Positions 13,219-39,137 of a DNA stretch of 64,000 nucleotides are shown here, piece after piece (the stretch's first letter is position 1; every line of letters starts with the position of its first letter). The notes under the pieces were generated by a model. That model saw nothing but the letters and a program-made list of their open reading frames with translations. It searched no databases and was not told the DNA's origin. The stretch is from positions 434,001-498,000 of the forward strand of contig NZ_CANLGU010000002.1 in assembly GCF_947490405.1 (NCBI RefSeq), read 5' to 3'. The position numbers were made by a program, and so were the translations under genes. This DNA comes from an uncultured Algibacter sp. Its GTDB lineage: Bacteria; Bacteroidota; Bacteroidia; Flavobacteriales; Flavobacteriaceae.

Positions 13219-13254
13219 AAAAAAGGTGTTACATTTTTATGTAACACCTTTTTT
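13219..13254 (+). terminator. Intrinsic terminator after sucAB
   Basis: A perfect 16-bp stem (13219-13234 with 13239-13254) with a TTTT loop has A-rich and T-rich ends, so it can work in both directions. It closes the sucAB unit and, on the other strand, the small-peptide unit that ends at 13284. Confidence 0.9.
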
Positions 13255-13283: not shown

Positions 13284-13400
13284 CTAAATAAAACACATAA
13301 CAATATTTACTGCGATAACGATAACAACTAAAATTGACAATCCTATAATAAAGTATTTATTTAGAGTGTTGTTCTCTTTTTCCATTTCGGCTTTAAGCAT
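13284..13400 (-). CDS. Small single-helix membrane peptide
   Basis: 38 residues from the ATG at 13400, or 33 from the ATG at 13385. A short charged N-terminus (MLKAEMEKENNTLNKY) leads into one long hydrophobic helix (FIIGLSILVVIVIAVNIVMC), and the protein ends at once. An ORF extension to a TTG at 13475 runs through an RNA hairpin, so I doubt it. The gene lies downstream of the RNA-like unit at 13414-13492 on the same strand and in front of the bidirectional terminator. The function is unknown. Size and hydrophobicity resemble stress peptides, small subunits of membrane complexes, or type I toxins, but nothing visible decides. Confidence 0.5.
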   Translation of the reverse strand: MLKAEMEKENNTLNKYFIIGLSILVVIVIAVNIVMCFI

Positions 13401-13413
13401 GATTTTTGTTTTA

Positions 13414-13492
13414 AAAAATTTGTTTAAAAACTCTGCACCATTACAGTGCAGAGTATCTAAAAAATTCTCTCTCAAAAGAATTAATTAATAGC
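13414..13492 (-). ncRNA. Putative small RNA or structured leader, unit A of a tandem pair
   Basis: On the minus strand a TATTTTTA box (13497-13504) is followed by two hairpins. The first has a 6-bp stem (13477-13482 with 13463-13468). The second is a perfect 9-bp stem (13446-13454 with 13430-13438) with the 7-nt loop TGTAATG and a T-rich tail. Unit B repeats the same order with changed but still paired stem bases, which suggests selection on RNA structure. The T-tract here is interrupted and the small membrane peptide starts 30 nt later, so this could be its leader rather than a free RNA. Ends are estimates. Confidence 0.4.
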
Positions 13493-13522
13493 ACTGTAAA
13501 AATAAGATGCATTAATTAAAAA

Positions 13523-13548
13523 AAAAATACGCACTTGTACGTATTTTT
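13523..13548 (-). terminator. Intrinsic terminator between the two RNA-like units
   Basis: A 9-bp stem AAAAATACG/CGTATTTTT (13523-13531 with 13540-13548) with an 8-nt loop continues on the minus strand into an unbroken run of T. It would stop transcription coming from the response regulator or unit B. A counterpart hairpin in unit B lies at 13680-13701. Confidence 0.65.
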
Positions 13549-13576
13549 ATAATTGTTAGTAAGAGAGATGAATCTA

Positions 13577-13647
13577 TAAAAAACGAAAACTCTAAATCAT
13601 TACAATTTAGAGTTTTCTATAATTCTCCCTAAGAACTAATTAATAGC
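13577..13647 (-). ncRNA. Putative small RNA, unit B of a tandem pair
   Basis: On the minus strand a TATCTTTA box (13652-13659) is followed by a small hairpin (13632-13637 with 13621-13626, one G-T pair). A strong terminator hairpin comes next (13605-13613 with 13589-13597, extended by A-T pairs) with the loop TGTAATG and the tail TTTTCGTTTTTT. No start codon with a credible ORF follows it, so a free RNA of about 65-75 nt is the simplest reading. Start and end are estimates. It lies 60 nt after the response-regulator stop codon. Confidence 0.45.
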
Positions 13648-13679
13648 ACTGTAAAGATAGAATATATAAATGATACAAT

Positions 13680-13701
13680 AAATACGTACATCTACGTATT
13701 T
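13680..13701 (-). terminator. Hairpin directly after the response-regulator gene
   Basis: A perfect 9-bp stem AAATACGTA/TACGTATTT (13680-13688 with 13693-13701) with a 4-nt loop begins 10 nt after the response-regulator stop. The following T-tract on the minus strand is broken (TTTATTG), so termination may be partial. Confidence 0.5.
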
Positions 13702-13710
13702 TATACGCAA

Positions 13711-14343
13711 CTACAAAAAGTCTTTGTTTAAGTTGGCCCAAATAGAAAGAGATGTGGGTTTGTTGTCAAGCTCTAGCTTATGCACAATATTACTTCTATG
13801 TTTATCTACTGTTCTAACAGAAATTGATAATTCATCTGCAATATCTTGACTCGTTTTACTCTCAGAGATAAGTTTTATAATTCTCAATTCAGATTTTGTA
13901 AGCATATCCAAAGCATCAGGCTTTTTATCAATAGTGCTTGCATTTAAATAAGATGCTATTTCTTCACTAAAATAAGGTTTACCATTTACGACCTGACTAA
14001 TGCAAGTCTCAATCTCTTCAATAGCAAATTCTTTTAAAATGTAACCGTAAACATCAAATTCTTGGGCTTTATCGTAAAGTTCTTCTTCTTTGTCAAAAGT
14101 AATAAGGATAACCTTTGTTGGTAAGTCATTTTTTTTGCAGGCCTCAGCAATTTCCAATCCAGTTTTATAAGGCATTCTTATGTCAAGAATAGCAATTTCT
14201 GGTTTTAATTTAACAATCAAATTATAAGCAGCCTTACCATCTTCTGCACTACCAATTATATTGTATCCTTTTGAGGTTAAAAAATCAGTTAGTCCACGTA
14301 ACATAAGTGGGTGGTCATCAGCTATAACAATAGATGTATTCAT
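13711..14343 (-). CDS. LuxR/NarL-type response regulator
   Basis: 210 residues. The receiver domain (1-120) has the acidic pair D9-D10, phospho-acceptor D54 in AILDIRMP, the switch Thr in ILITFD, and the conserved Lys in GYILKEF. A GerE-type HTH at about 145-205 contains LTKSELRIIKLISE and the recognition helix ISVRTVDKHRSNI. No histidine kinase lies beside it, so its partner is elsewhere in the genome. It is followed on the same strand by the two tandem RNA-like units and the small membrane peptide, which are candidate targets or co-transcribed partners. The retropepsin-like gene is 35 nt upstream. Confidence 0.92.
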   Translation of the reverse strand: MNTSIVIADDHPLMLRGLTDFLTSKGYNIIGSAEDGKAAYNLIVKLKPEIAILDIRMPYKTGLEIAEACKKNDLPTKVILITFDKEEELYDKAQEFDVYGYILKEFAIEEIETCISQVVNGKPYFSEEIASYLNASTIDKKPDALDMLTKSELRIIKLISESKTSQDIADELSISVRTVDKHRSNIVHKLELDNKPTSLSIWANLNKDFL

Positions 14344-14378
14344 TTAATTTAGGAGAGAGATAGGGTTTACTATTAATT

Positions 14379-14819
14379 TTATAACTTTAAATATAGATAT
14401 TTCTTTTCATAATCTATAATGGCTTTTCCTTTTTTTAAAATGTCTGCGCCTATAATCCCATCAACAGGTTTGGAGTTATGATTAACAAGCGCGGTATTAA
14501 CATGGGTAAGATTAAATAAAACTAAAACAATTTTGTTGTTAGACCATTTACCTATTTTAACTTTATTTTTTTTTGCTGTTTTAGTATCCATATTTGTAGC
14601 GCCAGCGCCAGCAGCCTTAATCAAAGAATCTTCTGCATTAAGTTTAAACGTTTCTATACCTTCAAAACCAACGCAAGAACTTGATGCTCCAGTATCCAAA
14701 ATGAAATTACCTCTTACACCATTAATGGTGGCTTTAATTTCAAAATGATTCGTTTTGGTAAACTTTAATTTTATTTTAGTGTATCCTTTCTTATCAAGAA
14801 ATTCTTTCAACGTTTCCAT
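14379..14819 (-). CDS. Retropepsin-like aspartic protease family protein
   Basis: 146 residues. The catalytic motif of single-lobe aspartic proteases is present as FILDTGASSSCV (D42), with the second family signature VDGIIGADIL near 122 and the flap region between. The length fits a retropepsin-like monomer that would work as a homodimer. There is no signal peptide, so it is probably cytoplasmic. The substrate is unknown. It reads in the same direction as the response regulator downstream (35-nt gap) and diverges from tatD, with only 75 nt shared upstream. Confidence 0.8.
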   Translation of the reverse strand: METLKEFLDKKGYTKIKLKFTKTNHFEIKATINGVRGNFILDTGASSSCVGFEGIETFKLNAEDSLIKAAGAGATNMDTKTAKKNKVKIGKWSNNKIVLVLFNLTHVNTALVNHNSKPVDGIIGADILKKGKAIIDYEKKYLYLKL

Positions 14820-39031: not shown

Positions 39032-39137
39032 GCTGGCAAGTACGTCCGCGTTAGCGATTGTAGCGGCATCCTTTTTTGAGGCACGAAAAAAAGATATAGC
39101 GGAAAGCGCGACCCCGCCTTTTTGCGGGGTAACGCCC
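39032..39137. repeat. GC-rich palindromic intergenic element (REP-like)
   Basis: A stretch of about 105 nt is far richer in G and C than its surroundings. GCGTTA (39048-39053) pairs with TAACGC (39130-39135). ATCCTTTTTT pairs with AAAAAAAGAT across the middle. An inner 7-bp hairpin ACCCCGC/GCGGGGT lies at 39111-39117 and 39124-39130. I know similar fold-back elements as dispersed repeats in flavobacterial genomes. This window contains only one copy, so repetition cannot be shown here. Confidence 0.6.

Follow-up and report, generated by a model that had tools for sequence, protein, structure and literature searches.

What are the two tandem units that follow a response regulator gene in an uncultured Algibacter sp., and does that regulator control them? 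The window (the whole stretch of DNA analysed, 64,000 nt) carries the regulator at 13711-14343 on the minus strand, and the original prediction had proposed that the units behind it are a pair of small RNAs or a duplicated leader. From comparison with related loci, we consider it probable that the units belong to one sRNA family whose copies are each activated by a LuxR-type regulator of their own, and that the RNA in turn feeds back on the regulator mRNA.

Two tandem units in the Algibacter window

Both predicted units were found on the minus strand, between the regulator gene and a 38-codon membrane ORF. They lie 155 nt apart, a little less than the roughly 157 nt first given, with TTTAC starting at 13655 in unit B and at 13500 in unit A. 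The block that they share without change, TTTACAGTGCTATTAATTA, measures 19 nt where 18 had been counted. Allowing up to three mismatches, units A and B are its only matches in the window; with 0.18 expected and two reached in 3 of 100 shuffles, two occurrences are beyond chance expectation.

Each unit follows the same order: a dyad, 26 nt, TAnnTTTAC, three free bases, GCTATTAAT, a small hairpin (hairpin 1) and a terminator hairpin. In unit B the operator-like 18-bp dyad ATACGTAGATGTACGTAT (13682-13699) matches the pattern exactly and occupies the same place in relatives. It precedes a putative -7 promoter box, TATCTTTAC (13651-13659), and a predicted small RNA of about 68 nt (13580-13647) with GCUAUUAAUUAGUUCUUAGGGAGAAUUA at its 5' end, hairpin 1 and a terminator. 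The operator-like dyad of unit A, ATACGTACAAGTGCGTAT (13527-13544), matches with one mismatch and is followed by the putative -7 box TATTTTTAC (13496-13504). The small RNA or leader of this unit (about 70 nt, 13421-13492) carries GAGAGAG in its hairpin 1 region and ends in a hairpin with a weak T run. Both RNAs were delimited by covariance model match and fold.

The boxes were assigned by sequence and by the published consensus for the flavobacterial sigmaA box, given as TAnnTTTG at -12 to -5 (PMC9723704). TAnnTTTAC fits this box and is likely the -7 promoter element, which would put +1 at the G of GCUAUUAAU or GCTATTAAT, i.e. at 13647 in unit B and 13492 in unit A. Relative to this presumed start the dyad is centred near -43, where activators that substitute for the -33 contact commonly bind. 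The dyad had originally been described as an ATACG hairpin; the element is present, but it precedes the probable transcription start, and what is conserved is a DNA dyad. RNA structure was rejected as its main reading because the element is fixed in place, varies along with the regulator and in several loci is fully palindromic with no loop (ATACGTAACGTTACGTAT); it is better read as an operator-like dyad, which possibly also serves as terminator of the preceding unit.

The folds of both RNAs beat 200 of 200 dinucleotide shuffles (z -4.07 and -4.16), and hairpin 1 reaches 8 bp in the predicted folds of both units rather than the 6 bp first proposed. The terminal stem is ACTCTAAAT/ATTTAGAGT in one unit and ACTCTGCAC/GTGCAGAGT in the other. 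Pairing is kept, as had been noted, but only three positions and not four are changed on both sides, the eighth pair being A-T in both. The T run after this hairpin is good in unit B and poor in unit A, after which the membrane ORF follows, in agreement with what had been described for the two ends.

A covarying RNA family in Flavobacteriaceae

The same genome holds a third copy (C1:486295), with 39 nt identical to unit B, directly downstream of another LuxR-type gene whose PAS_3 match is slightly under cut-off. With the two units as query, 27 of 60 genomes (own included) matched at E 0.01, some of the matches being at chance level only. A pattern scan of named genomes returned at least 115 stretches, a few of them probably chance (L039, L076). 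The genera among the matches listed include Algibacter, Olleya, Gelidibacter, Seonamhaeicola, Hyunsoonleella, Lacinutrix, Bizionia, Winogradskyella, Formosa and Mangrovimonas; at the loci so found GTATT, TTTAC and GCTATTAAT are fixed by the scan pattern itself. A covariance model built from 64 sequences matched 146 of 397 family genomes and 107 of 237 genera at E 0.01, a level with rough E-values at which about four chance genomes are expected. The 240 candidate units collected from related loci include chance ones, and one row of sequence set A2 (L002) starts 13 nt too early.

Tandem copies vary in number, with up to nine model matches in one genome (G376), as might be expected of repeated extragenic elements or mobile-element remains that have no regulatory role. 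We regard that reading as very improbable, given the fixed gene context, the fixed spacing and the matched regulator-dyad classes described below, and the three model matches in the Algibacter genome itself.

All 12 of 12 pairs of the terminator stem show changes on both sides among the 64 sequences. The number of cells changed on both sides was 167, against 46 in shuffles, and 93.5% of stem cells were paired, against 75% when shuffled and at most 57% when slid. The terminator stem thus covaries strongly. The original prediction would have failed had related genomes lacked homologues with conserved pairing; such homologues were recovered in many relatives among the Flavobacteriaceae. At hairpin 1, 182 of 203 units are able to form a hairpin of at least 5 bp, a count taken without a chance control; 53 have GGG, GAG or GGA as part of the loop. 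Inner pairs are nearly invariant in the 89 units whose positions +17 to +21 read (U/A)AGGG, changing from U-A to C-G in two and from G-U to G-C in two; covariation of this hairpin is weak. A set criterion found the terminator in 140 distinct units of 210 tried (duplicates included), the median length between +1 and the end of the stem being 65 nt, with 11 overshoots among the 140.

No family of Rfam release 15 reached its gathering score over the units in the window, and across 16 related loci the only families at threshold were tRNAs and one ribosomal-protein leader. Identity with Flavo-1 was rejected, as the Rfam match to that family sits at 39045-39117 on the plus strand of the window, with none over the units, and is apparently unrelated. 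The family is not described in any of the titles and abstracts listed by the literature searches. The sRNA family is apparently undescribed so far and widespread in Flavobacteriaceae.

Near-matches at L299 and similar loci were set aside, being close to an alaS-like reading frame (by eye). Another locus, L198 (G006:C67), has an sRNA-like unit with a GCTATTAAT start and a terminator-like hairpin, and no clear dyad.

Regulators, dyad classes and a membrane microprotein

The gene beside units A and B encodes a REC-LuxR (NarL/GacA-like) response regulator, recognised by Pfam Response_reg and GerE, with NCBIfam GacA/NarL-like matches below cut-offs; it is both the presumed activator and a presumed target. 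Upstream of it on the same strand is a clan AA aspartic protease-like gene (14379-14819; Pfam Asp_protease_2), and the end of such a gene precedes the regulator in many relatives. Arrays were grouped by dyad, some genomes being counted twice (as G and as named loci). Among 105 arrays with the TACGTA dyad, a REC-LuxR gene lay directly upstream of 92 and was truncated or fragmentary at 4, while 5 were at a contig or locus edge and 4 had none. Linkage in 96 of 105 arrays supports the original proposal that the RNAs or leaders may be run by the adjacent regulator. Of 28 arrays with TACTCA dyads, 27 had a PAS-LuxR gene upstream and one was at an edge. Exchange between the two classes was zero.

Six arrays (L078, L048, L100, L057 and two in L052) carry a third type of dyad, ATACCCA or ATACCAA. 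The array in L078 follows another REC-LuxR gene, and those in L048 and L100 are divergent from large genes that look sensor-like by eye. In L052 (3449 and 5154, minus strand) the ATACCCA-type dyad, with the same promoter and GCTATTAAT start, stands directly before two secreted-looking genes near a REC-LuxR gene.

The TACGTA arrays with no regulator match were L066, L153, L043 and WIN, the last two probably chance units. Upstream of 4810 in L066 the regulator is apparently decayed (by eye) and one sRNA unit is kept, with no membrane protein detected; before 4851 in L153 (minus strand) the units come directly after the protease gene, with no regulator gene between. In L014, the regulator beside units in G006 was reported by the search as a 58-aa fragment only. 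For nine genomes lacking the RNA (eight with no covariance model match, and G003 with no match in two other searches), the best regulator match at E 1e-25 was none in three, 33-38% identical in five and 44% identical in G030. In G004, which has the RNA, it was 97% identical. No units followed the regulator relative in the three RNA-less genomes inspected (G030, G003, G011).

The dyad also keeps its distance from the promoter. With every offset from -90 to -10 relative to TTTAC allowed, the REC-LuxR dyad began 44 nt ahead of TTTAC in most units: 26 of 28 where the locus had been found by similarity alone, and 128 of 145 among the matches listed for pattern-found loci. No dyad within four mismatches was present in 1 of 28 and 10 of 145 of these REC-LuxR-linked cores, respectively. 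These counts replace an earlier one (218/224 at -44) that allowed only -45 to -43. The 17-bp PAS-LuxR dyad stood at -43 in 27 of 27 units. A wider regulon acting through the dyad finds no support in the Algibacter genome, where dyads are not in excess (40 matches, 44 in the control); four other places in it match the dyad with one mismatch, equal to unit A, so such a regulon may exist.

The ORF after unit A (13284-13400, minus strand) encodes a conserved small single-pass membrane protein of 38 aa, or 33 aa from an inner ATG at 13385. A profile made from ten peptides and searched within 500 nt after the last unit found this protein, of about 33 aa, in 86 of 102 TACGTA arrays (81 of the 90 with the full 500 nt), in none of 27 TACTCA arrays and in none of 4 ATACC arrays. 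Neither the opposite strand nor stretches lying 2 kb upstream gave a match to the profile, and no Pfam or NCBIfam family scored above cut-off for the protein. At least six T follow the stem in 20 of 55 last units, compared with 56 of 72 first or inner units.

Such a neighbour raises the alternative that, instead of encoding free sRNAs, the units form duplicated 5' leaders or attenuators for the membrane-protein gene. The frequency of the protein after last units, the weak T runs of those units, and two loci (L053, L145) where the unit promoter leads straight into the membrane-protein ORF with a leader starting with GCTATTAAT would all suit it. We nevertheless think it improbable as a full account, since first and inner units have stronger T runs and a search of the 27 TACTCA arrays found no such ORF. 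Both readings may be true, with inner units as free sRNAs and the last unit also a leader of the membrane-protein gene, as its weaker T run and its position before the conserved protein suggest. Read-through or leader use would then link the last unit to the protein. Between this ORF and a convergent odhB-like gene, a hairpin flanked by A and T runs (13221-13252) is probably a two-way terminator.

Predicted feedback and comparison with known systems

Two elements in the leader of the regulator are complementary to the RNAs. ATTAATAGT (14369-14377, minus strand) could pair with the RNA 5' end, the last pair being G-U, and CTCTCTCCTAAATTAA (14344-14359, minus strand), directly before the start codon, with hairpin 1 of both units (duplexes of -13.3 and -13.7 kcal/mol). 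As a word the 9-mer is not rare in the window, with five matches against 3.85 expected. ATTAATAGC, complementary to the RNA 5' end, is enriched in regulator leaders, occurring in 26 of 81 distinct ones, which as related sequences are not independent. Among 579 control leaders, taken from the other genes of these loci, only 1 has it, in front of the protease gene that precedes the regulator in L085. TCCCT, complementary to hairpin 1, was found in 36 of the 81 against 7 of the 579, and CTCTCTC in 8 against 1. Mean duplex energy was -13.3 kcal/mol for regulator leaders and -8.9 for controls. With the 9-mer masked, RNAs and leaders from the same species were predicted to bind better than cross-species pairs (p = 0.0004, uncorrected for kinship). 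In Gelidibacter and some relatives (L144, L116, L094, L097) the ATG is immediately preceded by both elements, arranged in the order needed for pairing; predicted duplexes in L144, L116 and L097 range from -15.6 to -23.4 kcal/mol. Pairing was better than 95% of own shuffles in only 27 of 81 leaders (mean z -1.34), and none of 24 PAS-LuxR leaders had the 9-mer. The match between the RNA tip and the regulator's own mRNA suggests a self-limiting control circuit.

Could GCTATTAAT instead be a promoter or initially transcribed element? The RNAs would still be activated by the regulators, acting elsewhere through hairpin 1 only, and the leader match would be a DNA site for the same or another protein. 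In each of the three dyad classes, and on some mRNAs as well, GCTATTAAT comes immediately after the promoter. Aligned on the dyad alone, in place of earlier base counts that required G(C/T)TATTA, it stands unchanged at +1 in 14 of 18 distinct units from similarity loci, in 70 of 101 units among the matches listed for pattern loci and in 18 of 20 PAS-LuxR units, and is better kept than the bases after it. Against such an element, the leaders contain a second, separate element (TCCCT or CTCTCTC), whose sequence is complementary to that of hairpin 1 and varies along with the RNA of its own locus. Clades also differ in where the 9-mer stands, some having it about 25-35 nt ahead of the ATG and others immediately ahead of it; such variation is easier to reconcile with RNA pairing than with a fixed site for a protein. 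We therefore hold the promoter-element explanation to be unlikely, though part of the conservation may reflect promoter function, since GCTATTAAT starts two putative mRNA leaders in L052 and the membrane-protein leader in L053 and L145.

Under the preferred reading, RNA pairing, the active response regulator would bind the dyad near -43 of each unit and bring RNA polymerase to a promoter that appears to have a -7 box but no clear -33 box. An RNA of about 70 nt would begin at GCUAUUAAU and end at the covarying terminator hairpin. Its 5' end and hairpin 1 would base-pair with the mRNA of the regulator itself, in its start region, probably blocking translation, and this complementarity points to negative feedback. 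The weak terminator of the last unit would let some transcripts continue into the small membrane protein, so that the same signal would also yield that protein. The sRNA copy at the other locus of this genome would be driven, through a dyad of its own, by a second and different LuxR-type regulator. Neither Hfq nor CsrA was found in the genome, so the RNA would either need no protein partner or use a different one. More tentatively, one sRNA family with a shared 5' seed may be the common output of REC-LuxR, PAS-LuxR and ATACC-dyad regulators, each acting through its own operator at the same position; it would be an Hfq-free hub that merges signals, feeds back on one activator and is coupled to a membrane microprotein.

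The RNA probably acts on other mRNAs too. The Algibacter genome has 71 pattern matches for ATTAATAGC before an ATG and 21 for the pattern read backwards, a control that is not codon-neutral, so enrichment is not claimed. Of 63 distinct sites inspected, 21 pass a loose leader filter, two of these being sRNA units on the other strand. The best candidates for further mRNA targets are L160 and L252. L160 looks secreted and has a VGVGTTTP motif; the same leader is present in G004, a similar one in G007, and it is absent from the G008 and G006 homologues. L252 is aminotransferase-like by eye and has a 30-nt leader with the same letters in G007. CCCTAA or CTCTC was also seen near the start codon in leaders of secreted-looking VGIGTTTP-type proteins in several genomes (L214-L221), which are possible further targets.

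LuxO works with sigma54, and the Qrr sRNAs act with Hfq. Unlike that system, the regulator here is REC-LuxR, with no sigma54-interaction domain among its Pfam matches; the promoter is sigmaA-like by inspection (TAnnTTTAC), and Hfq gave no match in the Algibacter genome (5 of 14 control genomes were positive). The likeness to LuxO-Qrr of Vibrionaceae lies in the sibling RNAs and the feedback, here predicted: as described for Qrr, the response regulator switches on sibling sRNAs with a conserved 5' region, which repress the regulator's own mRNA (PMC3262071). GacA-RsmX/Y/Z of Pseudomonas likewise joins a response regulator to an 18-bp upstream activating site in each sRNA promoter (PMC4950607), comparable to the putative operator dyad. 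The sites differ from those given there, as GacA's is TGTAAG-N6-CTTACA, at -75 or -196, whereas the dyad here is TACGTA-N4-TACGTA (TACTCA and ATACC in the other classes), next to the promoter. Unlike RsmX/Y/Z, units A and B have no rows of GGA motifs. RsmY/RsmZ-type sRNAs bind and titrate CsrA/RsmA; a CsrA search of the Algibacter genome gave no match (3 of 14 control genomes were positive). Rfp18 of Flavobacterium psychrophilum is, like the present family, a flavobacterial sRNA conserved beyond its species with predicted mRNA pairing; it appears to differ in its description, which gives at least three stem-loops and metalloprotease targets (PMC9723704). The proposed circuit would work like LuxO-Qrr or GacA-RsmYZ, yet is neither, as defining features of both (Hfq and a sigma54 promoter in the one, CsrA and the GacA site in the other) were looked for and not found. 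What is unusual is the presence of the same RNA beside several regulator/operator pairs, and its tie to a microprotein.

To our knowledge, little is known of the regulatory RNAs of Flavobacteriaceae, which are important polysaccharide degraders, and much of the phylum apparently does without Hfq. The regulator, its likely operators, the RNAs and at least one predicted target lie within about 1.5 kb and make a tractable circuit, and the same design is seen with other regulators and operators. Such a circuit opens both sRNA pairing that is independent of Hfq and the merging of signals through sRNA copies to direct tests. The locus also points to a conserved membrane microprotein that has no named family.
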